DNA of 64,000 bases from Micromonospora violae (GTDB lineage Bacteria; Actinomycetota; Actinomycetes; Mycobacteriales; Micromonosporaceae). Shown here piece after piece: positions 14,278 to 60,366 of this stretch. The translations under genes were made by a program, and so were the position numbers. The stretch is from NCBI RefSeq assembly GCF_004217135.1, contig NZ_SHKK01000001.1, positions 1,054,001-1,118,000 on the forward strand, given 5' to 3'. The first letter of the stretch is position 1; the number at the start of each line of letters is the position of its first letter. Under the pieces are notes generated by a model. That model worked only from the letters and a program-made list of their open reading frames with translations. It had not been told where the DNA came from and did no database searches.

Positions 14278-14284
14278 GCAGGTC

Positions 14285-43336: not shown

Positions 43337-43371
43337 CAAGGGGTCGTCGGTTCGAATCCGGCCGTCCCGAC
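43337..43371 (+). repeat. att copy 3
   Basis: 35 bp of the tRNA-Pro 3' sequence, from CAAGGGGTCGTCGG to CCCGAC. The part left of CAAGGGG that other copies share (CTGGGGGT) is absent and replaced by the class 2 arm (CGGTAA). Confidence 0.9.
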
Positions 43372-43635
43372 CGGTTGACCTGGGGAGATGAAGATCTTCT
43401 CCGGTAACGGCGGTAACATCCGGTAACGGATGATCTTTGTTCGCCGTAACGGCGATGATCGTTGGCGACCATGCTGCTGAATTTCGAACGCTCTGACCTG
43501 CCGTTTCGTCTGCGTCCTGGACGGAGCGGCATTTCGGTCTCTAGATTCCGCGTCAAGTGCTGCAGCTGCTGCCAGATGTCGCTTCGTTGGGTGGCTCGGC
43601 AATCCTCCTCACGGCAGGGCCGTCGGCTGGCGCCT
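43372..43635. repeat. Class 1 left arm, copy 1
   Basis: Matches 53662-53920. The first ~60 bases are nearly identical (TTGACCTGGGGAGATGAAGA and three CGGTAAC words at 43402-43427). Weaker similarity continues through CTCTGACCTGCCGTTTC and GTCAAGTGCTGCAG. No gene is present. The CGGTAAC cluster is a likely integrase arm region. Confidence 0.75.
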
Positions 43636-43704
43636 CGTGTTTCCGGGGAGTTGGTGGGCAGGGGGGCAGATCCCGCGGGTTCCGCGTCGTGGTAGGAAAA
43701 GGCC

Positions 43705-44847
43705 GTGCCGACCGCCGTTGATGATGATCTGTTCGACCGTGCGGGTGAGCTGAAGCAGCAGCTGGTGGCGTTCTCACAGCAGCGGCGTTATGACCGGGCG
43801 TTCGACGATGTGCTGGAGGATCAGCATGACGGTCGGGTTCCGCTCGACGAGCACACCTTGATGATTTTGTGGGACTACTTCGTCCTGGAGCATCGGCTGC
43901 CAGACGGCCGGACGGTGGTGGAACAGTTCGTCGCCGCGCACCCGGAGTTGTCCGAGCAGGAGCAGCGGATGCTGCTCGGGTGGCGGGACGTGGTGCAGGG
44001 GCCCTTCGAGGTGCAGAGGCGCGACGGGGCGACGCTGGTCGTGGTGAACCTCGTGGATGACCTGACCTACCGAGTGCGTTCCAACATGGGTCCGTCGGTG
44101 TTCCGACGCACGCCGCGTCGGTCGTTTCTGCTCGCTCGGCTGGTAGCGGTGGGCGAGGAGTGGATGATCAGCGGCCCGATGAGCGTGTGGCGGGCACAGG
44201 AGCGGGACGTCGCTTACGAGATGGCGTTGGAGATGTCGCTGCGTGTGCCGGAGGCGGTGTACCGGAACCCGGAGAAGCTGGCTCAAGCGTGGGAGCTGCA
44301 ACGTCAGGATCGGGATCGGTTTGTGCGGTTCTTCGGCAGCGACCTGGTGGTGGTGACTGGCGATCAGGTGGCCGACCGGATGACCGGTTTCTACGCGTTC
44401 TGCCGTGCCGAAGTTTCTGGCACGTCGTCCTCTACCGTGGCTGCTGACGATGCGGTGTTCGAGTTGCCGCCGGATGTCGTGGATGCGGAGACGGTGGCGA
44501 TGATTTACGACGAGGTCGACGGGTTGGGTTTCTACGCCGAGTTCGGGTTGGTGGAGGCGGCGTTCGCGGATCCGGATTTGCTGCGCCGCCGTCGCTATCG
44601 GGAGCACACGCTGGCGTACCTGCAGGATGACAGCGTCGGCCCGCTGGTGCTGCGTCGGCTGGCCGCGCGTGATCCCGAGCGGGCCAGTGTGGTGTTCCGG
44701 CGGCTGTTGAAGAAGCCGCGTTTCGACTGGACCCGTGACGGCGAGGTACTTCTCCGCGCATACAAGCCGGAGTACTCCCGACGGGCGCCGCGACCGCGGG
44801 TCAGCCCAGTCAGCGAGCGGCTGGCCGCGTACGCCGGCCGTCGCTGA
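43705..44847 (+). CDS. Hypothetical protein, 380 aa
   Basis: Starts GTG at 43705 (MPTAVDDDLFDRAGELKQQL). It begins with a helical region, LMILWDYFVLEHRLPDGRTV and PELSEQEQRMLLGWRDVVQG, which resembles uncharacterised proteins related to SEC-C-bearing families, then a beta-rich region (GPFEVQRRDGATLVVVNLVD). No catalytic motif is recognised. It is the first gene of the class 1 cassette. Nothing overlaps it. Confidence 0.7.
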   Translation: MPTAVDDDLFDRAGELKQQLVAFSQQRRYDRAFDDVLEDQHDGRVPLDEHTLMILWDYFVLEHRLPDGRTVVEQFVAAHPELSEQEQRMLLGWRDVVQGPFEVQRRDGATLVVVNLVDDLTYRVRSNMGPSVFRRTPRRSFLLARLVAVGEEWMISGPMSVWRAQERDVAYEMALEMSLRVPEAVYRNPEKLAQAWELQRQDRDRFVRFFGSDLVVVTGDQVADRMTGFYAFCRAEVSGTSSSTVAADDAVFELPPDVVDAETVAMIYDEVDGLGFYAEFGLVEAAFADPDLLRRRRYREHTLAYLQDDSVGPLVLRRLAARDPERASVVFRRLLKKPRFDWTRDGEVLLRAYKPEYSRRAPRPRVSPVSERLAAYAGRR

Positions 44848-44854
44848 GGCGCCG

Positions 44855-45110
44855 TCAGGTGCTGGGCCAGGTCCATTCGGGTCTGGGCCGGGCTGGGAAC
44901 GGGGTGAGGCCGAGGTAACGCCGGTAGGCGGCGTGGATCCAGGCGGTCACCGTGTGCGGCGGGAACGCCAGGTCGGCGAGGGTGACCTCGCCCATGCCAT
45001 CCGGGCCTTGGCAGGTGGCGGCGATGCCGCGTGCCTCGTTCGTGTAATCGATCGAGGTGACGGTGACCGGAGTGCCCAGCAGGGTGGCCGGGGTGGGATA
45101 GGGCGGCGCG
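44855..45110 (-). pseudogene. Remnant of an unknown coding sequence
   Basis: The frame that ends at 44855 reads TLLGTPVTVTSIDYTNEARG, CQGPDGMGEVTLADLAF and AWIHAAYRRYLGLTPFP, clearly protein-like. There is no ATG, GTG or TTG between it and the divergent gene at 45148, so it is probably a 5'-truncated gene, or starts from a non-standard codon. Confidence 0.5.
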
Positions 45111-45147
45111 TTCCCGCAGCCGAGTCGCGGTCTGCTGAGATGGACAG

Positions 45148-46377
45148 ATGACCGGTGACGAGCTGACGGTGTTGGTGGATCGGCTGCGCTGGGATCGCCG
45201 GCGGGATCCCTACCGGGGTCGACGGGAGTACTCGCAGACCGCCCGGCAGGTGGCCGAGGAGTGTGATCGGTTGGTCGGCGAGGGTCGGGCGGATCTCGCG
45301 GTGCCGGTGTTGCGCAAGGCCGTCGACCGCATCACGCGGGCCCTGATGTATCTGGATGACTCCTCCGGGATCATCGGAGATGACCTGCAGGAGCTCATGG
45401 ACCTGTACGCGAAGGCATGCGTGGCGGCACCGCCGAACCCGCTCACCCTGGCCGGTTGGCTGGTCAGGCTGGAGTGCGACGGTCCCGGCTGGCCCCGCGT
45501 CCGACTGGCCGACTTCGGTCCCGCGCTGGGGAAGCGGGGGATCGCGGAGGTGGAGCGGCTGGTCACCGAGCGGGCACGTGTGGCCGACCCGGAGTCGTGG
45601 ACCGGCGCGTTCGCGGTGCGTGACCTCCGTGAGCAGCTCGCCGAGGTGTCCGGGGACGTCGACCGGTACGTCGCGGTGCTGGCCGAGCATCTGGCCAGCG
45701 CCGTGCAGTACCAACGGATCGCCGAGGCGTTACGTGCGGCAGGACGCCGGGACGAGGCGGTCGACTGGGCCCGGCGGGGCGTGGCCGCCAGCGCGGGCTC
45801 GCCCTACACCGACCGGCTCCGCGACATCCTGGTCGACATGCTCGTCGGCGCCGGCGACACGCCGGGTGCCGTGCGGGTCCGGCGGGAGGAGTTCGCACGG
45901 CATCCCACCGCTGCCGGGTACCGATCCTTGATCGACGCCGTGGAGACGGCCGGCGGCGACGATCCGACGACGTGGGCTCTGGGGGTGCTGCGTGAGCGGA
46001 TCACCCAGCAGCCGGCGTACGCCTCCGAACTGGTCGACGTGCTGCTGACAGTGGGCCGTGACGACCAGGCATGGCAGGAGGCCCAGCGCCACCGGCGGTG
46101 GCTCGGCGGGCCGCAGTGGCAGACCTTGCTGCAGAGGCGGGCCGTGACGCATCCGGAGGAGGTGATCCAGCCGTACCGGGACCTCGTCGAGCAGGCGATC
46201 CTCGATTCGGCCGACAGACGGCGCTACCGGCGGGCGATCGCGTTGCTCCCCGCCCTGCGAGCGGCGTACCAGGCCACCGGTGAACATGCGGTGTTTGGGA
46301 AGTACCTCGCGGAGCTGCGGGTTGAGCACAAGCGCCGGCCGACGTTCCTCAAGACCCTCGACGCTGCTGGGCTGTAG
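45148..46377 (+). CDS. DUF6880-type helical protein
   Basis: 409 residues, alpha-helical with TPR-like repeats: YQRIAEALRAAGRRDEAVDW then ARRGVAASAGSPYTDRLRDI. The C-terminal region (YRDLVEQAILDSADRRRYRR and FGKYLAELRVEHKRRPTFLK) is the one seen at the end of SWIM zinc-finger/DUF6880 proteins of actinobacteria. The SWIM finger itself is absent. The role is unknown. Confidence 0.75.
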   Translation: MTGDELTVLVDRLRWDRRRDPYRGRREYSQTARQVAEECDRLVGEGRADLAVPVLRKAVDRITRALMYLDDSSGIIGDDLQELMDLYAKACVAAPPNPLTLAGWLVRLECDGPGWPRVRLADFGPALGKRGIAEVERLVTERARVADPESWTGAFAVRDLREQLAEVSGDVDRYVAVLAEHLASAVQYQRIAEALRAAGRRDEAVDWARRGVAASAGSPYTDRLRDILVDMLVGAGDTPGAVRVRREEFARHPTAAGYRSLIDAVETAGGDDPTTWALGVLRERITQQPAYASELVDVLLTVGRDDQAWQEAQRHRRWLGGPQWQTLLQRRAVTHPEEVIQPYRDLVEQAILDSADRRRYRRAIALLPALRAAYQATGEHAVFGKYLAELRVEHKRRPTFLKTLDAAGL

Positions 46378-46530
46378 CTGACCGGTCTCCCGATTCCGGG
46401 TTGCTGGTGCAGTAGTCAGTTCGCAGCCTGGGCCGCCGTGCTGCTGATCGGCCGGGCTGGCCGTCTCGCGGTCGAGACGGAAGTGGACCTACCGTGGTTG
46501 CCGACGACCACGGCAACGGGAGTGGACAGC

Positions 46531-47001
46531 ATGCTCGATGTACGCCGCCTCGATCTCGAGGAAATCGCCACGGCGCTGCAGGACCAGAGCGCATACGAGT
46601 ACCACTGGCTCATTGACCCGGCCAGTGGGGAGATCATGATGTGGACGGCCGACGGCGGCATCGACGGGAAGACACCGGTGGACCTCGACGACCTCGACCT
46701 GGTCCAGATCGAGGCGCTACCGTCCTCCGTGTGGCACCGCGACATGGCCGACTTCGCCGAGCGGGTCAGCGACGAGCAGGTGCGCCGCAGGCTCCAGCGA
46801 GCCATCCAGGGCAGAGGCGCGTTCCGCCGGTTCAGGGACGAACTGCACGCGGAGTACCCGCACCTGCTGACAGCCTGGCATGCCTTTCAGCGGGCCCGGG
46901 CTACCCGCCGGGCCATTGACTGGCTTCTCGACAACTCCCTGATCGATGATGCTGCCGCGCGCAACTGTCGAAGCGAGCACCGAGATCCGGACGTGCCGTG
47001 A
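46531..47001 (+). CDS. UPF0158-family protein
   Basis: 156 residues. Starts MLDVRRLDLEEIATALQDQS; the family shows VDLDDLDLVQIEALPSSVWH, MADFAERV and GRGAFRRFRDELH, all seen here. The function is unknown. The ATG at 46531 follows CGGGAGTGG; an upstream start at 46438 would add a non-conserved leader. Confidence 0.85.
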   Translation: MLDVRRLDLEEIATALQDQSAYEYHWLIDPASGEIMMWTADGGIDGKTPVDLDDLDLVQIEALPSSVWHRDMADFAERVSDEQVRRRLQRAIQGRGAFRRFRDELHAEYPHLLTAWHAFQRARATRRAIDWLLDNSLIDDAAARNCRSEHRDPDVP

Positions 47002-47046
47002 GGCGAGCGGGCGAGTAGGCGGATCCGCGTGGCAGTAGGTAGGTCC

Positions 47047-47712
47047 CTACTCGATTTCTCCACGTAGTGCGGTCCGCCATGCGGAGACGCGAACCCGCAT
47101 GGCGGCGATCTCATTCGGCGTCAGACCATAGTCGGCGAAGTCTTCGTCGTCGAAGCGGTCGACGTGGCGAAGCATCGCGGCGAACATACCTCGGTCGAAT
47201 CCGTCGTCGGCGGCGTGTGCGAGCTCGCACAGCTGGTCGAGGGTGTACCGGCCACTGCCGATGGCGGCATCGATGTCGAGGAAGTCACGGGCAGCTGCGC
47301 GGTTGTAGAGGGCGTCCATCTTGCCGGCCATGACGTCGTCGGGGTGCAGGACCGGCCCGATGTCCATCTGGACGGGCGGCTGCGCGCGCCAGTTCGCAAC
47401 CAGTTCCACACGGTGCTGCTGGTCCGGGCGGGCTGGGTCGGTGACGTGCAGCCGAGCGAACGTGTCGAGTCGAAGGTCGATGTCGACGCGGTAGCCTTCG
47501 GTGCGGTAGGCGGCGATCACCTCGTCCACGGCGAGGGGGAAGTCGGCGCGGCGTTGCCAGTCGGCGAACAGGTCGACATCTTCGCTGGGGCGGTCGAGGA
47601 TTCCGTGTGCGGCGATCGCGTGCCCGCCGGCCAACGCGAACCCGTACCGACCGCCGACCTGCAGGGCGATTCGCGCCAGCCGGCGATGGATCGGTGGGGT
47701 CTTGTGGGCCAC
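47047..47712 (-). CDS. AbiEii-like nucleotidyltransferase
   Basis: 221 residues. The nucleotidyltransferase signature is visible: FALAGGHAIAAHGILDRPSE, with DVDLFADW giving the metal-binding Asp pair, then VDIDLRLDTFARLHV. AbiEii/AbiGii-type toxins add nucleotides to tRNA or other targets and occur in type IV toxin-antitoxin or abortive-infection pairs. It begins with GTG at 47712, overlapping the stop of the upstream gene by one base (TAGTG), so the two are coupled. Confidence 0.8.
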   Translation of the reverse strand: MAHKTPPIHRRLARIALQVGGRYGFALAGGHAIAAHGILDRPSEDVDLFADWQRRADFPLAVDEVIAAYRTEGYRVDIDLRLDTFARLHVTDPARPDQQHRVELVANWRAQPPVQMDIGPVLHPDDVMAGKMDALYNRAAARDFLDIDAAIGSGRYTLDQLCELAHAADDGFDRGMFAAMLRHVDRFDDEDFADYGLTPNEIAAMRVRVSAWRTALRGEIE

Positions 47713-48068
47713 TACGCGGCGTGTCGGCGAGCGTTGGCCAGCTCGGGGAATCGTGCCTCCCACAGTTGGCGAACCTGCGGGGGTACCACGAGGCCCGGCC
47801 ACAGACGCAGCAGGGTCGCGCCGTCCAACCATCGGGTGAGGTCGTCGGGTGCGGTGGCCTCGCGTAGCACGGTCTCGTACATACTTGCCAGGCGACGCGG
47901 GCTGTTCAGGTCGTAGCGCGCCCGCCCGGACCAGTCGAGCCGGCGATCCAGGCTCACCACCCCGGTCGTTGGTCCCCGTAGATCGTCGAGCCGGCCGGCG
48001 ACGACGTAGGGCCGCTGGTCGGCGTAGCGGGAACCGGCCGGTGCTCCGCCGGTGTTGGCACCACCCAT
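47712..48068 (-). CDS. Small partner protein of the AbiEii-like gene
   Basis: 118 residues, starts MGGANTGGAPAGSRYADQRP. It includes RLDDLRGPTTGVVSLDRRLDW and ends RQLWEARFPELANARRHAA. It does not show the winged helix of classical AbiEi that I can see, but it lies first in a two-gene unit and may be the antitoxin or a substrate-recognition partner. It is placed next to the class 1 right arm. Confidence 0.7.
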   Translation of the reverse strand: MGGANTGGAPAGSRYADQRPYVVAGRLDDLRGPTTGVVSLDRRLDWSGRARYDLNSPRRLASMYETVLREATAPDDLTRWLDGATLLRLWPGLVVPPQVRQLWEARFPELANARRHAA

Positions 48069-48254
48069 GGTTGACCAGCCTCCTCAGGCTGTTTCCTGAC
48101 GACAACGCCAAGACCCACGTTAGTCGACGTTGCTACGGGGAGGGGATCGCGTCACTGTGTCGGGCCGTCCAGTCTGTGATCGACGGCCGGGAGTTGCCGG
48201 CGATCGCGCGACGCAGGTGCCCGGCCGGACTGCCTGGCATGGGAAGCGCTTGAC

Positions 48255-48407
48255 GATCCGCGGTAACGAGCCCGGTAACGGAGAGGATCGCCACCTGCGG
48301 ATGAGGCGGTAGGCCGCGGGACGGAACAGCATTTCGGGCCGCCGTTTATGTCTGCTTCTAAGGATATTTCGACTTGTTCCGACATTGCGTGACAGAATCG
48401 TTGTAAA
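48255..48407. repeat. Class 1 right arm, copy 1
   Basis: Two CGGTAACG words (48261 and 48273) lie ~147 bases before the core. The last 20 bases are GACAGAATCGTTGTAAAA. The same layout occurs at 60170-60322. No gene is present. Confidence 0.7.
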
Positions 48408-48454
48408 ACTGGGGGTCAAGGGGTCGTCGGTTCGAATCCGGCCGTCCCGACGCA
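48408..48454 (+). repeat. att copy 4
   Basis: 47 bp identical to the tRNA-Pro 3' part, from ACTGGGGGTCAAGG to CCCGACGCA, the longest match of the five extra copies. The intact integrase gene ends 65 bases beyond it. Confidence 0.93.
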
Positions 48455-48459
48455 CGTGA

Positions 48460-48489
48460 GGGGCCATCTCGGAAGATCGAGACGGCCCC
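48460..48489 (-). terminator. Hairpin after the integrase
   Basis: GGGGCCATCTCG pairs with CGAGACGGCCCC (one mismatch) around a short loop. It lies between att copy 4 and the integrase stop and may end the integrase transcript. Confidence 0.6.
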
Positions 48490-48519
48490 ATTGTCGTACC
48501 TGGGTGACTAACTGAGTGA

Positions 48520-49653
48520 CTACGCCTCAGCGGCGAAGATCCGGTCCGTGGCGACTGCGCCGCCCAGGAGCACCGGCCGTAGTTGGTGCCGGTAGACGGC
48601 TTCGGTGACCGTCGTACCGGAGTGGCCGCAGAGGTCCGCGATCTGTTCGAGGCTCATGCCGCTGTCCGACAGTAGGGACACGAAGCTGTGCCGCAGTTCG
48701 CGAGGAGTCCAGTCGCGCGGGTCGAGGCCCGCTTTGGCGACGACGGGGCGGAAGGCCCGAAGCACGTTGTGCCGATCGAGGGCCGTGCCAGCGGTAGAGG
48801 CGAAGACGAGGCGGTCAGCGGCAGGCTGGCCTTGGCGCTCGTGGTGGGTGGTGAGCGCGGTGACGCACCGGGCCGGCAGAGCCAGGGTGCGACGCGACTT
48901 CTTGGTCTTGGTGTCTCCGTCGGCGCGGACCGAGCGCCAGACCTGAATGGATGGCGGCACCGGGGGATCATTGTCCGGCTTGCCGGCGAGGTCGACGTGT
49001 GCCCAGGTGAGGGCTCGCAGTTCCTCGGTGCGAGCGCCGGTCAGTAGTGAGACGACGATGTAGGCGTGCAACGAGCTGCTCTCGGCAGCGATGAGAAGCG
49101 CCTTGGCGTGGTCGAGCGTCAGCGACTTCGAGGGACGGCCGCCGCGACCGGTGGGCACTTCGCAGAGTGCCACAACGTTGCGTTTGACCCTGTCGCGCGC
49201 CATGGCTCGATTGACGGCGCGGTTGAGCAGCGAGTGGAGGAGCCGCAGGGTGCGGGTGCTCAGTCGTTGGGCTTTGCCCATGAGCCAGCGGTCGACATCG
49301 GTCGCGCTGAGATCCCGCAGCTTCCTCGCGCCGAGGTCGCTGATGATGTGGGAGCGCACAAGGGTGGTGTAGTTGGCCTTCGTGCTCTCGGACTGGTTGC
49401 TCAGGCCGTAGGTGAGCCAGTCGGTGAGGGCGTCGGCCACGGTGTGTCCGTCTTGGACCAGGGCGAGGCCGTCTTCGTAGTCGCGGATCTTCTCGCGCAG
49501 TTTGGTGCGGGCTTCGGTCTTGGTTTTGCCGCTGCCTTTGCGCACGATGCGTTTGCCGGCTGGGGTGTAGCCGACGGTGATGGTGGCGATCCAGCGTTGC
49601 CGGGACTCGTCCCAGTGCAGGCCGCCTTCTCCTCGGGCGCGGCGTTTGGTCAT
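48520..49653 (-). CDS. int: Tyrosine integrase, intact
   Basis: 377 residues. N-terminal arm-binding domain (GGLHWDESRQRWIATITVGY), core-binding SAM-like domain (STKANYTTLVRSHIISDLGA), then the catalytic domain: Arg in LLTGARTEELRALTW, Lys region TKTKKSRRTLALP, RELRHSFVSLLSDSG, and LCGHSGTTVTEAVYRHQ with the last His and Tyr. AAAGGAGG precedes the ATG at 49653. Its 3' end faces att copy 4. It is the only complete integrase beside an att copy in the window. Confidence 0.95.
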   Translation of the reverse strand: MTKRRARGEGGLHWDESRQRWIATITVGYTPAGKRIVRKGSGKTKTEARTKLREKIRDYEDGLALVQDGHTVADALTDWLTYGLSNQSESTKANYTTLVRSHIISDLGARKLRDLSATDVDRWLMGKAQRLSTRTLRLLHSLLNRAVNRAMARDRVKRNVVALCEVPTGRGGRPSKSLTLDHAKALLIAAESSSLHAYIVVSLLTGARTEELRALTWAHVDLAGKPDNDPPVPPSIQVWRSVRADGDTKTKKSRRTLALPARCVTALTTHHERQGQPAADRLVFASTAGTALDRHNVLRAFRPVVAKAGLDPRDWTPRELRHSFVSLLSDSGMSLEQIADLCGHSGTTVTEAVYRHQLRPVLLGGAVATDRIFAAEA

Positions 49654-49836
49654 CGGGTGCCTCCTTTCTGGGCTTCGTGTTCGAGCAGGTCGACGTAGGC
49701 GGTGATCGCGGCATCGGGACGAGGCGGGTGCGGCCTTGGTTCTCCTTGCTGCTGGCCTGCACCTACGATCCGAAGAAGCGGGCCGTGAAGAAGGTCGACG
49801 CGTTGACGCCGATCTACCGCAGCGAAGGGTGGCCTG
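49654..49836. other. Gene remnants between integrase and phosphatase
   Basis: The minus strand codes AAITAYVDLLEHEAQKGGTR and a stop just before the integrase, probably the end of an excisionase-type gene now lost. The plus strand reads LLLACTYDPKKRAVKKVDAL then TPIYRSEGWP, a likely end of another gene. Both lack starts. Confidence 0.4.
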
Positions 49837-50643
49837 ATGCACGTCTCGACTGCCTCGGAGGCTGGCAACCCGAAGTCGCCCAACGAGGACTGGGCCATGG
49901 CCAGCGAGAACCTGATCGTGGTTCTCGACGGTGCCACGGCTCGCACCGGCACCGGCTGCGCCCACGGCATCGCCTGGTACGCCGCAAAGCTCGGCTCTGC
50001 TCTCGCCGGCCTGGCCGCCGACCGCGACTCGGAGTTGGTCAACGCGCTGATGTACGGCATCCGGTTCACCGCCGACCAGCACCGCGACACCTGCGACCTC
50101 AGCCACCCAGGGACACCATCGGCCGCCACAGCGGTACTCCGGCTCAAAGACACGGCGTTGGAGTACGTCGTTCTTGGTGACGTCACGGTGCTGATCGACA
50201 CGGTCGACGGCATCCAGGTCATCACCGATGACCGGGTGGACAAGACCGCCCGCGCAGAACGTGACGAGGCCGATCGGCACCCGTTCGGATCGGCCGAGAA
50301 GCAGGCGGCACTGCTGCGGATGAAGCACGCCGAGTTGGCCGCTCGTAACCAGCCGGGCGGGTACTGGGTGGCAGCGGCCGATCCGTTCGCGGCTCGACAC
50401 GCGATCACGGGAGAACTCCCACTCGACAGCGTCCGACGGGTCGCCGTGCTGACCGACGGAGCCGCTCGCCTGGTGGCCATGTTCGGTCTACTTGACTGGC
50501 CTGACGTGCTTGACGTCCTGGCCCAGGACGGACCGACCGAGCTGATCAGCCGAGTCCGGGCCATTGAGGCCGCCGACCCGTCTTGCATGAAGTGGGCGCG
50601 CAACAAGCGCAGCGACGACGCCACCGCCGTATACGCAGCCTGA
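49837..50643 (+). CDS. PP2C-family phosphatase-like protein
   Basis: 268 residues. NEDWA near the start, LIVVLDGATARTGTGCAHGI (metal-binding Asp-Gly) and VRRVAVLTDGAARLVAMFG plus KRSDDATAVYA (C-terminal metal Asp) outline a PP2C fold that removes phosphate from Ser/Thr. Some residues are atypical, so it may be a diverged member. It starts at ATG 49837 and diverges from the integrase. Confidence 0.8.
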   Translation: MHVSTASEAGNPKSPNEDWAMASENLIVVLDGATARTGTGCAHGIAWYAAKLGSALAGLAADRDSELVNALMYGIRFTADQHRDTCDLSHPGTPSAATAVLRLKDTALEYVVLGDVTVLIDTVDGIQVITDDRVDKTARAERDEADRHPFGSAEKQAALLRMKHAELAARNQPGGYWVAAADPFAARHAITGELPLDSVRRVAVLTDGAARLVAMFGLLDWPDVLDVLAQDGPTELISRVRAIEAADPSCMKWARNKRSDDATAVYAA

Positions 50644-51825: not shown

Positions 51826-51840
51826 CCTCAGGCTCAAGGT

Positions 51841-52705: not shown

Positions 52706-52710
52706 GGTGA

Positions 52711-53133: not shown

Positions 53134-53506
53134 GAGATCATGATCGTGTATTGAGCGACAGGTCGCCGCCCGGGAGTGCCTGGACAACCCTTCGCCTCCG
53201 GCGGGTAGGGCCTCCGGCCCTACGACCCGGAGCCTGCCTCCGGCGGCAAGGGCTACCCGCCCTTGGACCCGGGCGGCTCTGGGATGCCCGGCCGATCCGG
53301 TGCCACCCGCCGCACACCACAGGCAGCCAGACCGGGCCTGCCCGGTCCAGGTCGTACGGCCGGCGGGGCGCTCCACCTGGACCGGGCAGGCCCGGCCCGG
53401 CAGGGCGACGCCTGCGCGACGGGAAGCCGGCACCCTCAGGTGCTGCGGACGAACACAGCCAATGGCTGGATTCGCTGGCGCGAGAAAGAAACCACCAGTG
53501 CGACCG
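53134..53506. other. Non-coding stretch with a long hairpin
   Basis: No gene supported. It is rich in CTCCGGCGG-type short repeats and contains a 21-bp perfect inverted repeat (see 53332-53405). Confidence 0.5.
53332..53405. repeat. 21-bp inverted repeat
   Basis: CCGGGCCTGCCCGGTCCAGG plus T at 53332-53352 is perfectly complementary to 53385-53405, with a 32-base loop (CGTACGGCCGGC...). Each arm is itself partly palindromic. It may be a small mobile repeat or a strong terminator. Confidence 0.75.
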
Positions 53507-53619
53507 GGGACCAGTGGGGGACCACACGTCCAACCCGGGCGGGCACGGACAGCGCAGCCGCCGACGACCTGCCGTCGGGCCCACCGTTGCTGACGTGCAC
53601 GAACGCCTACCGCGACGTC
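53507..53619. repeat. Class 3 right arm, copy 2
   Basis: CGGGGACCAGTGGGGGACCA then CACG lies ~100 bases before the core, as before att copy 2, and the junction reads GACGTCCTGGGG. Layout and words match 15395-15507. Confidence 0.55.
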
Positions 53620-53661
53620 CTGGGGTCAAGGGGTCGTCGGTTCGAATCCGGCGGTTCCGAC
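53620..53661 (+). repeat. att copy 5 (imperfect)
   Basis: Same core, with one G fewer in the anticodon-loop run (CTGGGGTC) and two changes near the end (GGCGGTTCCGAC in place of GGCCGTCCCGAC). It is the most diverged copy. Confidence 0.88.
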
Positions 53662-53920
53662 CGATTGACCTGGGGAGATGAAGATCTTCTCAGGTGACGG
53701 CGGTAACATCCGGTAACGGATGATCTTTGTTGGCGGTAACCGCGTGGATGGTTGGCCGTTGACGTGTCCGCTGCACAACGCTCTGACCTGCCGCTTCATC
53801 TGCGTTCCGGATGGAGCGGCAGGTTCGCTCTTGATTGCGCGTCAAGCGCTGCAGATGTTGCCACCTGTCGCTACGTCGGGCGGTCCCCAGGAGCCCTCGG
53901 CGCGGCAGGTGTTCGCGGGA
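53662..53920. repeat. Class 1 left arm, copy 2
   Basis: Second copy of 43372-43635: TTGACCTGGGGAGATGAAGA, CGGTAACATCCGGTAACGGA, then CTCTGACCTGCCGC and GTCAAGCGCTGCAGATG. No gene. Confidence 0.75.
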
Positions 53921-53969
53921 GGTCCAACCGAGACGTTTATCCACAACTTCACCGAGCGGTTCGGCATTT

Positions 53970-54032
53970 AGAGGGCTCGCTCCGATCGTGGAAGCCAGGT
54001 GGTCGCGGCGATCAGGACGAGGCTGGCCCCGT
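53970..54032 (-). pseudogene. 3' end of an IS5-family transposase with its terminal repeat
   Basis: AGGGCTCGCTCCGATCGTGG resembles the IS5 terminal repeat and runs straight into the transposase tail GAAGCCAGGTGGTCGCGGCG, as at 28885-28930. It shows the usual short distance between repeat and transposase end. Confidence 0.6.
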
Positions 54033-54045
54033 GAGGTCTTCCGGT

Positions 54046-56742
54046 CTAGAGACGCGTCCGCAGGCGAGCGACGGCCTGGCGGAGCGTGAGGTCGATGACG
54101 ACCAACCTGCCGTTCTGCTCCCACACTGTGAGGGCGTCAGCGTGGCGTCGAAAGCCAATTGCGCCGTCAGTGGGCGGAAACACCACGCGCAGTTTGCCGT
54201 CAGCGATTTCCACAGTGGTGTCGTCTGGACGATCGATGCGTAGGGCGGACATCCCGCAGCTGGCCAACAGTGTCGGCTTCGTCTCCAGATTCCGGGCCTC
54301 TGCACCGTGCCCAATGACGTTATAGGTGTCGGAGTGCTCGTCGTGGCTGGTAGTCATCAGCCTCGAGGAAGCGAGCACCGCGATGCTGGTGAGGCCGTTG
54401 AGATCAACTGTTCTCCTGGCCCGCAGCATGAGTGAGGGTAAGTCCCAGCGCCACACCTCGGTGCGGGCTGCGCCGGAGCCCAGTTGGTGGTTGACCCGGA
54501 CCAGCGCGGCGAGGCTGGTCGGGCTCCGGGCGATGTCGAGAACCGCGATGGTGGGGTCCAGTTCACGCCAGGCGATGTGGGGGGTGTCGGCGGTCAGGTC
54601 GATGAATGCGATGCCGTCGTCGTCGACCACGGTGAGCAACGCACCGTCGTAGCTGGGCAGCACGTAGTGCGCGGTGATGACGACGGGCGGCCGGAGCCGG
54701 CGCGTGCTCAGATTCAGGCTGCGGATTTCGCAGGCGGGACCGCGTCGCGCGACGAGCAGGACGTTGGCACCGTGATCGGCGACGACAAGCTGGTGTGCGG
54801 GGGTGTCCCAGCTGGCACGGATCCGGCCATCCAGGCCGATCAGGCGTACACCGAATTCGCCGTGTGCGGTCAGGATGGTGCGGCCCGAGAGCAGGACTGC
54901 GTCGTGGATCGGCAGTTGCCCGGCCTCGTCGGTCGACGTGATGTCGATCGGGGTGTCCTGGGCAGGTGCTCGTCCGGCCGGCAGCGGTGGCAGGTCGGCG
55001 GCGGCCAGCCGGTCAGCCCGGCGCCGGAGCCTGCCGGCGATCCGCCTGCGCTCGTCGGCATCTCCGTTGGGATCACCTGCCGCATTGCGAACAATGAGAC
55101 GCAGCGCGGCGGTGCAAAGCCGGCGGTCCTGTGCCTTGTCGGCGCAGTGCAGCTCGGACAGTGCCACCAGGAAGCCGCGTTGGGCCGGCGCCAATTCCTG
55201 GTCACGACCGTCGAGCAGCGTGATTGCGGTGGTCACCGTGTCGGTGTGCGGGCGCCAGGTTACGAGGTGTGCGAACAGGTACCCCGCAGTGTGGCCGCTG
55301 AGCGCCATGCCGGCCTGGAGGTTCGTCACCACGAGCGGGCGCAGCTCGGTGTCCGGCCATGCCGCGTCAATGGCACCGACATGATCGTCGGCGGCCTGTC
55401 GTGCGCGCACCCACTCGGCCCGCAACTGTCGGGCAGCCACTGCGTCGACCCGGGCCAGTCGCTCGACAGCTCCGGCAAATGCGCCCCGTGACCGCGCAAC
55501 GTGCAGCGCACGGTCACGCTCGCCGGCCCGCCACCACAGTCTTACCGCCAGGTCCGGATCGAGCTCACGTCCCTCGGCGAGGGTGGCGGCAAGGCGGTAC
55601 TTGCGGTGTCGCTCCAACAGCGCGACGGCCTCGCCCGGTAGACCAAGCAGGTCTGCGAGGACGAACGCGGATTCCTCGACGCGTCCGGCGCGGTGGAGCT
55701 CGGTGGCCGCCTGCCGGTAGAGCGTCCGCAGGTGTTGCTCGGCCCCGAAGCCGAGCGGGACCGTCGACCCGCCCTCGAGCTGGGCGTGCGGCACGAGATC
55801 CCCGGTGCGTGGTCGGGGAAGCCGAAGTGTCGGGCGCCCATTGGAACCACCGACAGCGATCGCCTCACGCAGCGCCCTGTCCCAGTCGCGACGCTCGAAT
55901 GCGGCGTCGAGCCGCCGTAGGTAACGCTGCTGCGCGCTGATAGCCAGCCAGGCGGCCCGGCTGGTCAGCACGAGCCGAGCGAGCAGCGTGTTCCACCAGC
56001 CACCCGACGACGTGCCGCGACCAGTCTGCGTTGGGCCGTTGTCCGCCGCAGCGGCGGTGCCTGAAGCGATCACCTTGCTGAGGCCGTACAGCAGACCCGC
56101 ACCGACGCCAATAACCAGCATCCGGAGCGGCGCCGCGACGAGCGTGGCAAGGCCAAACACGAAAACGGCCGCGCCGACCGCAGCGAGCTTCCCGGAAGCA
56201 CTGGGAGAGAGCCGCATCCGACGGTTCGGACGGGTGGACGCGGCCAGCAGCCGGCGGATCCGCCGCGGCGGCGGCGCGACACCGGCCACCGCGCGCAGGC
56301 CAGGCGCGGGTGGAAGCGGCTGCCAGGGCGATGGCGCCACCGCCGCGACAACCGGGCCGTCCAATGCCGCGAGCGGCTCGATCCGCAAAGCGGTCAGGTC
56401 GGTCCAGGAATCCCGGTCGACGCGGGTCAGAGCCGCCCGGCTGACCCACGTCGTCGCACCGGCGCGCGGGATCAGCACGTCGCCGGGCGCGGCGTCCCCG
56501 ACGGGTGTGCCGCTGAGGTGTAAGACGCCGCCGCTGTCGACGAGAACGAGGCCGGGAGCCAGTTCCGCGCGCACCTCGACCGCCTGGTCGAACTCCAGCA
56601 GCCACGCCCCGCCGGGTAGCTCGAACAGTGCGGCTGCGGGCTGCCAGGCCTCGACGACCCGACGGCGCGCCTCGGCCTCCCCGATCAGGCAGACGTCGAT
56701 CAGGAGTGCGCGGGCCGGGAGCCGGCCGCGGAACGAGCTCAT
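54046..56742 (-). CDS. Membrane beta-propeller protein of MoxR-vWA-propeller system (bpX6-like)
   Basis: 898 residues. The N-terminal ~150 residues form a beta-rich domain (LFELPGGAWLLEFDQAVEVR), followed by two membrane helices (about 187-204 and 207-224). A helical region with TPR-like content comes next (LYRQAATELHRAGRVEESAF). The C-terminal ~300 residues are propeller repeats (LIGLDGRIRASWDTPAHQLV, LLTVVDDDGIAFIDLTADTP). This layout fits the large propeller component of the predicted MoxR/vWA/beta-propeller ternary conflict systems. It starts with ATGA overlapping the upstream stop, as last gene of a four-gene operon. Confidence 0.8.
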   Translation of the reverse strand: MSSFRGRLPARALLIDVCLIGEAEARRRVVEAWQPAAALFELPGGAWLLEFDQAVEVRAELAPGLVLVDSGGVLHLSGTPVGDAAPGDVLIPRAGATTWVSRAALTRVDRDSWTDLTALRIEPLAALDGPVVAAVAPSPWQPLPPAPGLRAVAGVAPPPRRIRRLLAASTRPNRRMRLSPSASGKLAAVGAAVFVFGLATLVAAPLRMLVIGVGAGLLYGLSKVIASGTAAAADNGPTQTGRGTSSGGWWNTLLARLVLTSRAAWLAISAQQRYLRRLDAAFERRDWDRALREAIAVGGSNGRPTLRLPRPRTGDLVPHAQLEGGSTVPLGFGAEQHLRTLYRQAATELHRAGRVEESAFVLADLLGLPGEAVALLERHRKYRLAATLAEGRELDPDLAVRLWWRAGERDRALHVARSRGAFAGAVERLARVDAVAARQLRAEWVRARQAADDHVGAIDAAWPDTELRPLVVTNLQAGMALSGHTAGYLFAHLVTWRPHTDTVTTAITLLDGRDQELAPAQRGFLVALSELHCADKAQDRRLCTAALRLIVRNAAGDPNGDADERRRIAGRLRRRADRLAAADLPPLPAGRAPAQDTPIDITSTDEAGQLPIHDAVLLSGRTILTAHGEFGVRLIGLDGRIRASWDTPAHQLVVADHGANVLLVARRGPACEIRSLNLSTRRLRPPVVITAHYVLPSYDGALLTVVDDDGIAFIDLTADTPHIAWRELDPTIAVLDIARSPTSLAALVRVNHQLGSGAARTEVWRWDLPSLMLRARRTVDLNGLTSIAVLASSRLMTTSHDEHSDTYNVIGHGAEARNLETKPTLLASCGMSALRIDRPDDTTVEIADGKLRVVFPPTDGAIGFRRHADALTVWEQNGRLVVIDLTLRQAVARLRTRL

Positions 56743-58406
56743 CCGGTGCTCCGGACCGTACGCAGGATTTGGTTCGTGGCGAGGTCGACGATGTCGATCA
56801 GCCCTTCCGGGCGTGGCACCGCCAGCCATGGCTCGGTCGGATGCAGGGCCGGCTCGGCGATACCACCCGACCAGCGAGTAAGGGTCTGGGTTCGAGCCGG
56901 CGAGACCAGGCGGACGATCAGTCCGCCGCTCGACAGGGTCACCAACTGCGGACCGCCGATGTCGACCATGCCGATCACCGTTGCCTCCTTCGTGAGTGTC
57001 ACGTCGCCGACGAGACCGGCCGCAGCGTGGATGCGCCAGGTGGTGCCGCCCAGCGACCAGGCCGTCCTCTTCCCGGCTCCGAGGACGACCTGAGCATCAG
57101 CGGGGATCCGCGCCCCACCGGCCACGCCCGTGACCCCGATATGGGTGCCGGCCCGCCAGGCCAAGCGCGGGTCATCCATCTGCCTGCCGGGGGCAACCGT
57201 CACATACGACGACAGCTGATGGCTGCCCTCGGTGGACAGACTCCACCAGTTGCCACCGAGCTGGCAGAGCAGGACACCCCCCTGGAAATAGAGTGGCGAC
57301 AGTGCCCCTTCCGTGGCTGCCTCGACCTCGCTGACCGTCATGCCAATCGCGGCCAGTGGTACCGAGAGCTCCTGCAGCCGGCCCAGCGTCTTACCAATCA
57401 CGACCGCCCGTAGCGTCTCGTCGACCCAGGTCAGGACCACGAGCCGGCGACCCAACCAGGAGGCTGCCAGCGCCGGACCGGGCAGTTGGTGTCGTCGCGG
57501 TCGCCCGGTCGGCACCCGGACCGAGAGGATTTCAGCAGGGCCGTCGCCACGGGCGATCAGGTACGGCGCGGCGCTCGGGAACATCGGCCTCCGCAGGGGA
57601 CCGGTGCCGGCGCTGACACCGACGGAGGCGTCACGGAAGCCGGTGCCGCGCAGGACCCGCAGGGCGACCTCACCGCGAGGCAACGGGAGGTCGAGATGCC
57701 GCTCGCCGACGACGACTCGTACAACGGCCGCTCCGTCGACACCCCATTCCTGCTCGTTACTCACCAGCACCCGGCTCCTGTCGGGCAGGTGACTGGCCAG
57801 TCGCGGCCCGGTCAGCAGCCAGGCCTGGTCGGCCGTATCCAGCTGCTTCCTCCACTCCCTTACGGTCGACGGGGTCGGTTCGGCAGCTTTGCGGGCGACC
57901 AGCCAACCGGCGAGCTGTTTACTCAGTTCACCGCCCCGCCAGCTGCCCGGCCGTTCACCCAGCACTCCGACCACCATTGACCGCCCCTGGCCGGCGGCCC
58001 GGCGATGCAGAACGATGAGCGCGGCGAGCTGGACCAGCCGGGCGGCACCAAGCTGCTCTGGGCCGGTGTCGACGAGGACGGCTACCCGTCCACGCGGCGC
58101 GGCCGATCGATTGGCCGGTGCCAGGTACAGAAGCTCTCCGCCGGCGGCGCGGCGAATGAACTCGTCCGGTAGCTCCTGCATCAGCAGCAACTGCGACGGG
58201 AGTAGCCGCTCGATGGCGCCCCGGGCTGCCAGGCCGTCGTACCCGTCAGGCTGGCCGTCTTCCGTCGAGCCGCCCTCCGTCACGGGAAACAGGTCATTGA
58301 TCTGTCGTACCAACGGGCCCATGGCAAGTGCCACATCGCTGGTCAATGCGGACAGCGCCGACGCCCAGGGGACCAGCGCTGCCGGGAGGGCCATGCGGTC
58401 GGTCAT
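56739..58406 (-). CDS. vWA-like plus beta-propeller protein of ternary system
   Basis: 555 residues. It starts TDRMALPAALVPWASALSAL. A vWA-type segment RVAVLVDTGPEQLGAARLVQ then LAALIVLHRRAAGQGRSMVV lies at ~100-190; the MIDAS signature DxSxS reads DTGPE, so metal binding may be lost or changed. The rest (~300 residues) consists of propeller strands (AASWLGRRLVVLTWVDETLR, PTEPWLAVPRPEGLIDIVDL). It overlaps its neighbours on both sides by 4 bases. Known systems couple such a protein to the MoxR ATPase; the subfamily number cannot be set from sequence alone. Confidence 0.82.
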   Translation of the reverse strand: MTDRMALPAALVPWASALSALTSDVALAMGPLVRQINDLFPVTEGGSTEDGQPDGYDGLAARGAIERLLPSQLLLMQELPDEFIRRAAGGELLYLAPANRSAAPRGRVAVLVDTGPEQLGAARLVQLAALIVLHRRAAGQGRSMVVGVLGERPGSWRGGELSKQLAGWLVARKAAEPTPSTVREWRKQLDTADQAWLLTGPRLASHLPDRSRVLVSNEQEWGVDGAAVVRVVVGERHLDLPLPRGEVALRVLRGTGFRDASVGVSAGTGPLRRPMFPSAAPYLIARGDGPAEILSVRVPTGRPRRHQLPGPALAASWLGRRLVVLTWVDETLRAVVIGKTLGRLQELSVPLAAIGMTVSEVEAATEGALSPLYFQGGVLLCQLGGNWWSLSTEGSHQLSSYVTVAPGRQMDDPRLAWRAGTHIGVTGVAGGARIPADAQVVLGAGKRTAWSLGGTTWRIHAAAGLVGDVTLTKEATVIGMVDIGGPQLVTLSSGGLIVRLVSPARTQTLTRWSGGIAEPALHPTEPWLAVPRPEGLIDIVDLATNQILRTVRSTG

Positions 58407-58813
58407 GAGGGTGCCAGCCGTGCGGGGTCGAGTGGTTCCCGCGGCAGTGGGCCAGCCAGGACCAGTCCGGGCAACAATGCGATCAGTCCGGTCTGCTGGT
58501 TGGTGAGGTGGCGCAGAGGCTCGCGCAACAGATCCGCGCACGGCCACGGCTGGGCGAGCGTCGGTACCAGCACACCATCGTCCCAGCCGAGGTAGATGGC
58601 GCCGTCAGCCCACGGAAGTTCTGCCCGATCGCCAAGCACGATCAACCAGCTCTGTTCCCGGCCGGCGCAGGCACGTAGGTGGGCACCTGCAGTTACCCGC
58701 ATCAGCGCGTCCGCGCGCAACTCCGCCACCACCGCACCCGACGCTGCCACAGCCGCGGCGGGCAGCGGGGTGTCGCGCCGACGCCACTGCAGGGACAGGG
58801 GAGGCGCGCTCAC
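58403..58813 (-). CDS. Small bpX5-like component of ternary system
   Basis: 136 residues: SLQWRRRDTPLPAAAVAASG, a short helical region, then ELPWADGAIYLGWDDGVLVP and TLAQPWPCADLLREPLRHL. This matches the short bpX-type domain in which a LPWxDGxxYL motif precedes a Pro-rich segment. It probably links the MoxR ATPase and the vWA protein. It starts 4 bases before the MoxR stop. Confidence 0.72.
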   Translation of the reverse strand: MSAPPLSLQWRRRDTPLPAAAVAASGAVVAELRADALMRVTAGAHLRACAGREQSWLIVLGDRAELPWADGAIYLGWDDGVLVPTLAQPWPCADLLREPLRHLTNQQTGLIALLPGLVLAGPLPREPLDPARLAPS

Positions 58814-59955
58814 CGCCGGATCGCGGCGACCAGGAGGCCGCGCATGTCCTGCAGCGCCTGCGGGGCATCGGCCAGGATGAACCCCGCGTCGATCTCCCGT
58901 AGCGTCGCTTCGTAGCGCAGCCGGCCGTCGTGCGTCAGCGGCCCGGTGCCCAGCTCGTCGAGCAGGCGCCGGCCAGCCTCGACCAGCCGGGCTGCGCGGG
59001 CCTGCTGGCCCCGGGCGAACTCCTCCGCCGCGTACACCAGACTGGCGTTTCGTCCCTGCGCTACCAGGTCTGACAGCGCCTCCAGGGCCGAGGCTTGAGC
59101 GTCGAGTGTCGGCGCGATCAACGGAAGCACCCAGAGGTCGTCGGCAGTCGCCGCACCGCGTCCGTCCAGGGTCGCCGCAGCGGCCACCAGGCGCTGCGAA
59201 CGCACCACCCGGCGGTCACTGAGCGGTACGCCCGCTTGGCGCATCTGACGGATCGCGGACGCCAGCAGGCTGTGCACACCCTTAAGGTCACATTCACGAG
59301 CCGCCTGAGAAAGCCGATCCAACGCCGGCAGCATCGATCCCGTCAGATCGGACGGCTGAGAACCCACGTTCCACCCCACCTCCAGCAGCTCGTCGAGTCG
59401 CGCGTCCGGGACCGGAGTGACGAAGACACGAGCCAGAAACCGGTCCGCGAACGCGGCGAGAGCGGGATCATCGGGCAGGCTGTTTGCGGCGCCGACGCAG
59501 ACACGCAGCGGGCACGACAGGACACTTGATCCGCGCCGAAACACTCGTTCGTTCAGAATCCCCAGCAGTGTATTGAGGACCGCCGTCGAACCGAGAAAGA
59601 CCTCGTCGAGGAACGCTATCTCCGCCTCGGGCAGCATGCCCGAGGTCTCGAACTCCACCGACCCCTCACGTAACCGGCGGAGGTCGACAGGGCCGAAAAT
59701 CTCGTTCGGCTCGGTGAACCGTCCCAGCAGGTACTCGAAGTACCGGCCGCCGAGTTGGTCAGCCGTTCGCCGTACGGCCTCAGACTTGGCGGTGCCCGGT
59801 GCGCCGATGACGAGCACATGCTCGCCGGCGACGGCACAGAGCACGACAACCTCGGCGACCACCTCCCGGTCGACAAGACCAGTTTGTGCCCGCGCGATGG
59901 CTTCCCGAAGGACGATGGCGTCCGTCGACAAGGGGGCCGGCTGCATGGAGATCAT
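58810..59955 (-). CDS. MoxR-family AAA+ ATPase
   Basis: 381 residues. Walker A is GAPGTAKSEAVRR (residues ~51-63) and Walker B is IAFLDEVFLGS (~112-122). The region ADRFLARVFVTPVPDARLDE holds the arginine finger. MoxR ATPases act as chaperones or remodelers with vWA partners. It is the first gene of an operon whose members all overlap by 4 bases (ATGA). The start may be ATG 59955, GTG 59961 or ATG 59946; no strong ribosome-binding site decides. Confidence 0.9.
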   Translation of the reverse strand: MISMQPAPLSTDAIVLREAIARAQTGLVDREVVAEVVVLCAVAGEHVLVIGAPGTAKSEAVRRTADQLGGRYFEYLLGRFTEPNEIFGPVDLRRLREGSVEFETSGMLPEAEIAFLDEVFLGSTAVLNTLLGILNERVFRRGSSVLSCPLRVCVGAANSLPDDPALAAFADRFLARVFVTPVPDARLDELLEVGWNVGSQPSDLTGSMLPALDRLSQAARECDLKGVHSLLASAIRQMRQAGVPLSDRRVVRSQRLVAAAATLDGRGAATADDLWVLPLIAPTLDAQASALEALSDLVAQGRNASLVYAAEEFARGQQARAARLVEAGRRLLDELGTGPLTHDGRLRYEATLREIDAGFILADAPQALQDMRGLLVAAIRR

Positions 59956-60169
59956 TTGCACCGGCGAAGTCTACGAAATCAGAGCCTTCACCGAGTACCA
60001 CAATCTTTGCCAGATGCGGTGCGACGATGCGCTTCGGTCGGCGTTCCCAGATGTGCCGCGCACGGGCCTGGCATGGAGCCCTGCAGCACCGCCGGGGTGG
60101 TGACGGTCTGCCTGGCTGCGTCTTTGCGACGAAACTACCCGAACCTGGCGGCACCAATGGTCCTTGACT
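59956..60169. promoter_or_regulatory. Upstream region of the MoxR operon
   Basis: No gene. It holds the likely promoter of the ternary operon on the minus strand, but I see no confident -35/-10 pair. Confidence 0.35.
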
Positions 60170-60322
60170 TCTCGCGGTAACGGGACCGGTAACGACGAGA
60201 GTGTGCGGGTGGCGACGTGCCCATCACCGGATGGCAGGGGTCGTCATGGGGAGATATCGCTCTGTCCGGATTGGAGGACGTATAAATAGATTCCGGCATG
60301 CCGTGACACAATCGTTGTAAAA
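60170..60322. repeat. Class 1 right arm, copy 2
   Basis: Two GGTAACG words (60175 and 60188) lie ~150 bases before the core, and the last bases are GACACAATCGTTGTAAAA, as in 48255-48407. The middle is diverged. Confidence 0.7.
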
Positions 60323-60366
60323 ACTGGGGGTCAAGGGGTCGTCGGTTCGAATCCGGCCGTCCCGAC
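60323..60366 (+). repeat. att copy 6
   Basis: 44 bp identical to the tRNA-Pro 3' part. It is followed by AGACAAAAAGCCCTGACCAG, as in att copy 2, but the hairpin there is cut short. Confidence 0.93.

Follow-up and report, generated by a model that had tools for sequence, protein, structure and literature searches.

How do two units of DNA that lie a few kilobases apart come to have matching ends and unrelated genes, when neither encodes an integrase? The question is raised by a 64,000-nucleotide stretch (the window) of the 7.14-Mb single-contig genome of Micromonospora violae. The original prediction described two cassettes of this kind at a tRNA-Pro site and proposed that their cargo is exchanged while the ends are kept, with an integrase acting in trans. 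Here the two cassettes were placed in their genomic context, and their ends were compared across 160 Micromonospora genomes. The results make it probable that the cassettes are satellites similar to cis-mobilizable elements (CIMEs) that are recombined in trans by the integrase of a family of integrative and conjugative elements (ICEs), which we have named H1.

The site in question is a tRNA-Pro gene with the anticodon GGG, which was located by ARAGORN at 14203-14277 on the forward strand. The last 35 bp of this gene (14243-14277) constitute the attachment (att) core, and five further copies of the core were located on the same strand by BLAST. Copies 2 (15516-15550), 3 (43337-43371, the left boundary of cassette 1), 4 (48417-48451, the right boundary of cassette 1), and 6 (60332-60366, the right boundary of cassette 2 and the outermost of the six) match at 35 of 35 positions, and copy 5 (53627-53661, the left boundary of cassette 2) contains 2 mismatches. 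All six cores are in direct orientation and the genome has no others at up to 2 mismatches, so five segments are arrayed in tandem from 14.2 to 60.4 kb. Cassettes 1 (43372-48451) and 2 (53662-60366) are two of these segments and are not adjacent. The six-core array had been missed by the original prediction, as had a tyrosine integrase encoded in the segment between the two cassettes (48452-53661). The core is found in 160 of the 160 Micromonospora genomes at up to 2 mismatches, with 1 to 10 copies in each; by hand count, there is one copy in 49 genomes and two or more in 111.

The left arms of the two cassettes, designated type A, extend from 43372 to 43600 and from 53662 to 53884 on the forward strand. 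They had been described as matching, with a request that they be aligned, and the alignment agrees with that description. With the core included, positions 43337-43591 and 53627-53880 are 83.8% identical over 260 columns, and 57 of the 60 bases just after the core are the same. The local alignment score is 246, and the maximum score obtained from 200 simple base shuffles was 28. The motif GGTAAC is found at 43403, 43412, and 43422 in cassette 1 and at 53702, 53712, and 53735 in cassette 2. Among type-A left arms in general it occupies up to four fixed positions (+31, +40, +50, and +73) and is followed by a conserved block, about 100 bp long, that contains an inverted repeat with a 12-bp stem (43499-43531 in cassette 1, forward strand; 53789-53821 in cassette 2). 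In 28 arms, 96.4% of the 336 stem cells are paired. The support from covariation is mixed: 6 cells are changed on both sides, with a score of 0.163 that was reached in 0 of 500 shuffles, but the 2 pairs changed on both sides were equaled in 119 of 500 shuffles and the 8 further pair types in 415 of 500. The hairpin was considered as a terminator and rejected, a simple scan having flagged another, smaller hairpin instead.

The right arms, designated type a, extend from 48262 to 48416 and from 60176 to 60331 on the forward strand. The claim that these also match stands for the core-proximal part when the two are compared directly: the good alignment is limited to the last 32-41 bp before the core (28 of 32 positions, or 41 bp at 88%), the pairwise score is 44 compared with a maximum of 29 in 200 shuffles, and the identity of the two whole arms is 59%. 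The full length of about 150 bp is visible only in an alignment of 18 type-a right ends, two of which belong to H1 elements. This alignment reveals a unit of approximately 155 bp with outer GGTAAC-type direct repeats that are 12 bp apart (near -155 and -143; at 48262 and 48274 in cassette 1, and at 60176 and 60188 in cassette 2) and with a conserved block that runs up to the core (48377-48416 and 60291-60331). GGTAAC is present at -132 to -165 in 16 of the 18 ends, and 8 of these hold two exact copies. In the attP of lambda-type tyrosine integrases, the crossover core is flanked by arm sites on each side, and the cassette ends, with GGTAAC repeats in both arms, look like such an attP.

Between the arms, the interiors of cassettes 1 and 2 were found to have no blastn match to one another, in keeping with the unrelated genes that had been predicted. 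The cargo of cassette 1 (43705-47916, forward strand) encodes proteins of 380, 138, and 250 aa that belong to no family, a DUF6880 protein of 409 aa, and a UPF0158 protein of 187 aa. An AbiEii-like pair had been proposed for this cassette, and no such family was found with Pfam, NCBIfam, or PADLOC; the single PADLOC match in cassette 1 is weak (PDC-S62, E = 7.9e-5), and there is none in cassette 2. The cargo of cassette 2 (54046-59961, reverse strand) is the MoxR ternary operon that had been predicted, a MoxR-vWA-beta-propeller system that encodes bpX6 (927 aa), a 602-aa protein without a family, bpX5 (136 aa), and bpMoxR (383 aa). MoxR-vWA ternary systems have been described as conflict systems (PMC7159879), and several of the cassette interiors look like conflict genes. 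As had been stated originally, neither cassette contains a tyrosine integrase, as judged from scans with Pfam and with tyrosine-integrase hidden Markov models (HMMs).

A cassette was considered to be fully bounded when it has the core and left arm at one side and the right arm and core at the other. Seven such cassettes were identified in six genomes: the two in the window and one each in G133, G031, G153, G011, and G076, the last with a left arm that lacks its first 42 bp. Their sizes range from 3.8 to 11.7 kb, and there are three kinds of cargo: the orphan/DUF6880 set, the MoxR-vWA ternary operon, and RHS/HINT-type proteins. The cassette-1 set is shared by the window, G133, and G031 at 88-93% nucleotide identity, and the proteins in G133 and G031 are 61-92% identical to those of cassette 1 (61% for the 138-aa frame). 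The MoxR operon occurs between the same ends in G153 with 93% nucleotide identity over 6.4 kb, and this copy contains insertion sequence (IS) genes. The cargo in G076 includes an RHS/HINT protein (Pfam RHS_repeat and PT-HINT), and that in G011 encodes proteins from the same similarity clusters without a nucleotide match to G076. Between the kinds of cargo, and between G011 and G076, blastn matches the ends only, over 148-230 bp at the left and 36-196 bp at the right; for a few pairs of cassettes the right arm falls under the blastn limit. No tyrosine integrase was found in the seven bounded cassettes with iterative tyrosine-integrase HMM scans, and no site-specific recombinase family was found in a Pfam scan of the cargo open reading frames (ORFs) from the window cassettes and from parts of those in G153 and G076. 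Transposases of IS elements with rve or DDE domains do occur among the scanned ORFs.

The proposed cassette type, integrase-less and located at tRNA-Pro with conserved ends and differing cargo, is thus encountered across the genus with different gene sets, and the arms are not tied to one of these. The phrase "cargo is exchanged" is best taken to describe a pattern across genomes. Cassette 1 has a right arm with 80% identity to its counterpart in G011 and 79% to the one in G133, even though G133 has the cassette-1 cargo. For the left arm of cassette 2, an arm with 95% identity is found in G056, where the next gene in an unbounded segment encodes a transketolase. On these identities, the arms do not track the cargo strictly. 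The neighbors of the cassette-1 set vary as well: it adjoins the tRNA itself in G133, occupies third place behind two mini-cassettes (see below) in G031, and follows an IS-bearing segment in the window; in G115 and G064 it follows other right-end types in segments that are not cleanly bounded. The identity of cassettes relative to their flanks was considered as a proof of transfer and rejected, the values of 88-93% for the cassette and 86% for the chromosomal flank in G133 being too weak.

The type-A left arm was found in 31 copies in 25 of the 160 genomes, the window included, and 26 of the copies abut a tRNA core. The search gave 34 rows in 26 genomes, from which those in G125:C16 and G142 (43 bp, E about 3e-4) were dropped as chance matches, and two pieces of the second G031 left arm were merged into one copy. 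At most 4 candidates were scored per genome, or 2 in the family-wide search, and the copy numbers are lower bounds. The copies outside the 26 are the second copy in G056 and those in G125, G087, G018, and G121. For 25 of the 26 abutting arms, no tyrosine-integrase ORF was found downstream in the same segment within the available sequence, which is short for some of them (the contig ends at 0.6 kb in G091 C63, 1.2 kb in G118, and 1.8 kb in G091 C77). The right arm matches 21 of the 160 genomes. Outside of the genus, nothing convincing was found for the left arm in 354 genomes of the family, 30 of which matched; the four rows from other genera, which are 32-44 bp in length with E values of 1.3e-4 to 9.7e-4, were attributed to chance. 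A pattern scan of named genomes for the left arm returned 7 loci, all from Micromonospora. There was no match of the left arm to plasmids, and there were 0 matches of the right-arm pattern to viral contigs.

Two unusual copies of the left arm were encountered. In G125:C43 (L075, 10777-11032) a type-A left arm lies beside a core-like sequence with 4 mismatches in inverted orientation, with another right-end type, and this arrangement possibly reflects an inversion. In G005:C158 a 16.8-kb segment that begins with a type-A left arm contains, by eye, a CRISPR (clustered regularly interspaced short palindromic repeats)-repeat-like sequence just before the right core (L080, near 19830-19885).

Could such a pattern have arisen by homologous recombination between the arms or cores of resident elements, with the cargo being swapped and no site-specific step involved? 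The arms and cores are direct repeats that do offer 35-230 bp of homology, and there are long composite segments in which a boundary has been lost, such as the 13.9-kb segment in G115. However, the left boundary is positioned exactly at the core in 26 of the 31 copies, the arms are laid out in the manner of integrase arm-site repeats, the core is the 3' end of a tRNA that is used by several integrases, and one cassette can be found beside different neighbors. Homologous swapping is therefore an unlikely explanation for the two cassettes.

If a site-specific step is involved, the next issue is which integrase could catalyze it. Type-a right arms also end two very large elements, of 92 kb in G041 and of 99 kb in G018. 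There are only two cores in G041 at up to 3 mismatches, which are 92 kb apart, and those in G018 are 99 kb apart. Each element has a short arm at its left end, with GGTAAC located at +42 and +54, and a tyrosine integrase gene comes next; the name H1 is used here for this integrase and element family (92-99 kb). The H1 integrase from G041 contains PF00589, SAM-like, and Arm-DNA-bind_4 domains. The same element encodes TraG/VirD4 and a Type II/IV secretion ATPase (T2SSE), both above the Pfam cutoffs, and the T2SSE protein is read as VirB11-like; relaxase-like matches (MobA/VirD2 and MobB) are under the cutoffs. With an integrase and conjugation genes between its att sites, the G041 element is classified from its sequence as an ICE. 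The 92-kb ICE (L142, L177-L179, L099) was also observed to contain defense-type and other Pfam domains, including ApeA, AAA_21 ATPase, HEPN_Swt1/DUF499, GmrSD, DUF1156, a helicase with NOV_C, pPIWI_RE, N6_Mtase, and lantibiotic dehydratases. The second block of the cassette left arm was considered as an origin of transfer (oriT) copied from the helper and was rejected, since it is absent from pieces that cover the whole G041 ICE.

An H1-type integrase is encoded in 17 of the 160 genomes (E <= 1e-60). Nine full copies and one partial copy are close to one another (at least 92% identity) and constitute H1, three at 67-69% identity constitute a subfamily designated H2, and four at 54-60% identity lack a core in the flanking sequence that was retrieved. 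Each of the 13 H1 and H2 copies abuts a tRNA-Pro core. In H1 left arms GGTAAC is found at both +42 and +54 in 8 of 10, with one copy in G146 and in G061. The three H2 left arms contain GGTCAC at the same two positions, 12 bp apart, and the one readable H2 right arm (G077, a 162-kb element) contains GGTCAC at -153 and -141. The H1 and H2 integrases are 57-59% identical over the first 140 alignment columns and 67-79% identical over the rest. Among these elements the arm motif and the integrase vary together, with one mosaic exception. A class of GGTCAC cassettes to accompany H2 was sought with an exact pattern 20-50 bases past the end of the core, which matched 27 of the 160 genomes, and was rejected because only 3 of the matches are at a tRNA-Pro core and all 3 are H2 elements. 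In G153, an H1 remnant with a truncated integrase is located directly before the MoxR cassette. A comparison of the H1 integrase with phage records gave 1763 matches, none of which was at 60% identity or more.

In the mechanism that we propose for the cassettes, the attP would be split into two arms, with the 3' end of tRNA-Pro as the crossover core. The H1 integrase would excise the cassettes, circularize them, and insert them in trans next to any tRNA-Pro core. Serial insertion at any copy of the core would cause the cassettes to pile up beside tRNA-Pro, from which they could depart singly or along with the ICE. For transfer between cells, the cassettes could be accreted with the ICE or be co-transferred once excised; the term "cis-mobilizable" in the original prediction thus describes one possible route, an alternative being co-transfer after recombination in trans. 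Since nothing but the ends would be of importance to the integrase, the interiors would be free to differ. We infer the binding of the integrase, excision, transfer, and the route by which new cargo is acquired from a comparison of sequences.

A number of observations weigh against the assignment of the cassettes to the H1 integrase. The left arms of the cassettes and of H1 are alike in the GGTAAC motif only, and the spacing differs (+31, +40, +50, and +73 versus +42 and +54). Of the 18 type-a right ends, 8 hold a single exact GGTAAC, both H1 ends included, and 2 hold none. The genomes with H1 and those with the left arm overlap in four only (G018, G076, G084, and G121), two of which (G018 and G121) have a partial left arm that is not located at a core. 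Only three H2 elements, and a single right arm from these, inform the covariation of motif and integrase, and the H1 element of G084 (G084:C1:4058457-4099075; L162, L211; 40.6 kb), which encodes an H1 integrase and has a GGTAAC left arm, ends in a right arm of the GGTCAC type; this element is a mosaic of two helper classes as read from its ends. In G056 a type-A segment without a right core has two integrase-like pieces, one of 148 aa located 8.4 kb from the left arm (E = 1.6e-5, detected in one HMM scan and absent from another) and one of 216 aa located 19 kb away. The G041 element encodes a protein that is weakly related to the 250-aa product of cassette 1, with 36% identity over about 100 aa (E = 2.6e-6). 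Finally, the genome that contains the window has no H1 integrase at E <= 1e-60, and its cassettes are therefore probably immobile until a helper arrives, unless they are served by another recombinase.

Some of these observations would be expected if the cassettes were ordinary CIMEs, formed by the decay of an ICE through internal deletion, with the integrase and transfer genes lost and attL and attR kept. CIMEs are defined as decay products of ICEs or of integrative and mobilizable elements (IMEs), and the classical ones are 1.2-13 kb in length (PMC7563491). Tandem CIMEs are common, and the definition accommodates a missing integrase (PMC5704250, PMC7563491). A larger integrase-bearing parent with an internal deletion had been named in the original prediction as an outcome that would count against it, and this is borne out in part: the right-arm type of the cassettes does end the 92-99 kb integrase-bearing elements. 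Degraded integrases are found in neighboring segments and in the G056 type-A segment, and the weak relationship of one cassette-1 protein to a G041 protein points in the same direction. The left arm, however, is not that of the large elements. The identity is 73% among the 26 cassette arms and 92% among three H1 arms, but 39% between the cassette arms and the three H1 arms (a value lowered by the H1 stretch entering the integrase gene after about 118 bp), and the type-A arm is therefore a separate conserved family. When the seven cassettes were compared with the complete G041 element by blastn (E <= 1e-4), the right arm alone was matched, with 36-183 bp aligned. If H1 had undergone independent internal deletions, the products should retain its own left arm and fragments of ICE genes. 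Because only right-arm DNA matches and the left arm is a separate lineage, the cassettes do not look like deletion remnants of the H1 element. Moreover, three kinds of cargo with the same precise ends are unexpected from independent deletions. Decay could still have started from a parent ICE with a type-A left arm that is extinct or unsampled, and we regard an origin by decay as doubtful, though deserving of some weight.

It is also conceivable that the mobilizing enzyme is not H1 but a resident tyrosine recombinase, the obvious candidate being the tyrosine integrase (PF00589) that is encoded at 48520-50400 on the reverse strand, in a 626-aa frame with an N-terminus that is probably over-extended, and that is about 27% identical to the H1 integrase. 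This integrase is encoded in the array between the two cassettes and beside the same core, its homologues are located about 69 bp from a tRNA-Pro core in six other genomes that were read, and there are five matches to its catalytic part in the window's genome (E <= 1e-3). However, the arm motifs of its own segment (48452-53661) are unlike those of the cassettes: GGTAAC is absent from the left end, and GGGGACCA sites, which are typical of the mini-cassette class described below, are found at the right end, near 53506-53524. Four of its relatives that could be read to the next core have another right-end type than GGGGACCA, and given this difference the segment is perhaps composite. A resident integrase as the mobilizer is very improbable on this evidence.

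A second class of integrase-less units, here called mini-cassettes, is represented in the array by its first segment (14278-15515); the mini-cassettes have other ends and use the same core. Eight bounded mini-cassettes were found in six genomes, the window included; seven are 1.06-1.67 kb in length and one is 6.2 kb. They lie at 14278-15515 in the window and, in oriented coordinates, within 332-3128 in L067, 1892-3029 in L080, 1801-3020 in L088, 14840-16224 in L103, and 2076-9396 in L211. The mini-cassettes share about 100-210 bp at the left and 145-300 bp at the right, and the motif GGGGACCA is found at +49 to +61 at the left, at about -122 at the right, and also at -111 in 5 of the 8. The middles contain small, largely unrelated ORFs, and the cross-matches are only patches with the 6.2-kb member. 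The gene in the window mini-cassette (14585-15043, reverse strand) encodes a protein of 152 aa. Relatives with 91% nucleotide identity were found in G011 (G011:C81:9284-9831) and G152 (G152:C1:2892450-2893008), and another with 66% identity was found in its own genome at 2.2 Mb (G000:C1:2205353-2205796). Because the relatives in its own genome and in G011 lie away from cores (that in G011 on another contig), chromosomal genes may become mini-cassette cargo.

The two classes suggest a broader reading, which we put forward tentatively and with less than even confidence. The tRNA-Pro gene could serve as a gene-capture platform, at which several independent recombinase-free families, each with attP arms and an arm-site motif of its own, ride on the integrases of unrelated ICEs and persist as lineages. 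GGTAAC would then be used for the multi-gene cassettes and GGGGACCA for the single-gene mini-cassettes, in an ICE-integrase counterpart of integron cassettes that may be used largely to circulate conflict genes.

Several known systems resemble the cassettes in part. Like the CIMEs of Streptococcus, they are flanked by att sites, have no integrase or transfer genes, are found in tandem at one gene, and carry cargo. The direct repeats at attL and attR are represented by the 35-bp core, which flanks cassettes 1 and 2 and the five others, and no recombination module was detected in the recombinase scans of the cargo; with no integrase in the cassettes, the capacity for their own excision and integration that is expected of an IME is lacking. 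The tandem arrangement is compatible with cis transfer after accretion with an ICE. Unlike CIMEs, the cassettes constitute a lineage that is marked by a conserved left arm of its own. By blastn they share only the right arm with the candidate helper, and the passages on CIMEs in PMC5704250 and PMC7563491 name no arm-site motifs that are matched to an integrase subfamily. In Dehalococcoides, 15 ssrA islands without an integration module, which hold 38 rdhA and other genes, have been proposed to be cis-mobilizable (PMC3146451). The integration module is missing in both cases, and the islands are in tandem at a tmRNA gene there and at tRNA-Pro here; the Dehalococcoides system differs in its use of a serine recombinase, and in the relevant parts of PMC3146451 no arm-site motif code or helper ICE is described. 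The tandem actinomycete integrative and conjugative elements (AICEs) of Frankia and Streptomyces are likewise actinobacterial and in tandem at one tRNA, but the tandem elements named in PMC3218068 encode their own integrases, and a tandem pair in Frankia was reported there to excise singly and together. Clusters of attC sites lacking integron integrases (CALIN), integrons, and miniature inverted-repeat transposable elements (MITEs) are similarly non-autonomous: their recombination ends are conserved, and an enzyme must be supplied in trans (PMC11389934). They depend on attC sites with IntI, or on a transposase, whereas the cassettes have a double-arm tRNA attP, an ICE-type tyrosine integrase as the candidate enzyme, and multi-gene cargo of up to 11.7 kb. 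Among the literature matches listed, no title concerned Micromonospora tRNA-Pro cassettes; subscription literature was outside the scope of the search.

Small islands without an integrase are easily mistaken for dead remnants. Because the cassettes recur in 25 genomes with precise, motif-coded ends, they may instead be live satellites of ICE integrases. The switch from GGTAAC to GGTCAC with the integrase subfamily provides a cheap and direct test of the pairing between enzyme and cassette, and the arms alone could be used to reveal other integrase-less mobile units. The platform may spread conflict systems in actinobacteria, because the cargo includes the MoxR-vWA operon and RHS/HINT proteins.

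The segment that precedes cassette 1 (15551-43371, 27.8 kb) contains an integrase remnant (15591-16361) beside the left core and several transposase genes. Another tyrosine-recombinase-like ORF of 305 aa is located in this segment at 21691-22608 on the forward strand. A direct repeat of 560 bp, with copies at 26185-26743 and 42783-43344 that are 88% identical, is also found here, and the right copy extends into the core at 43337.

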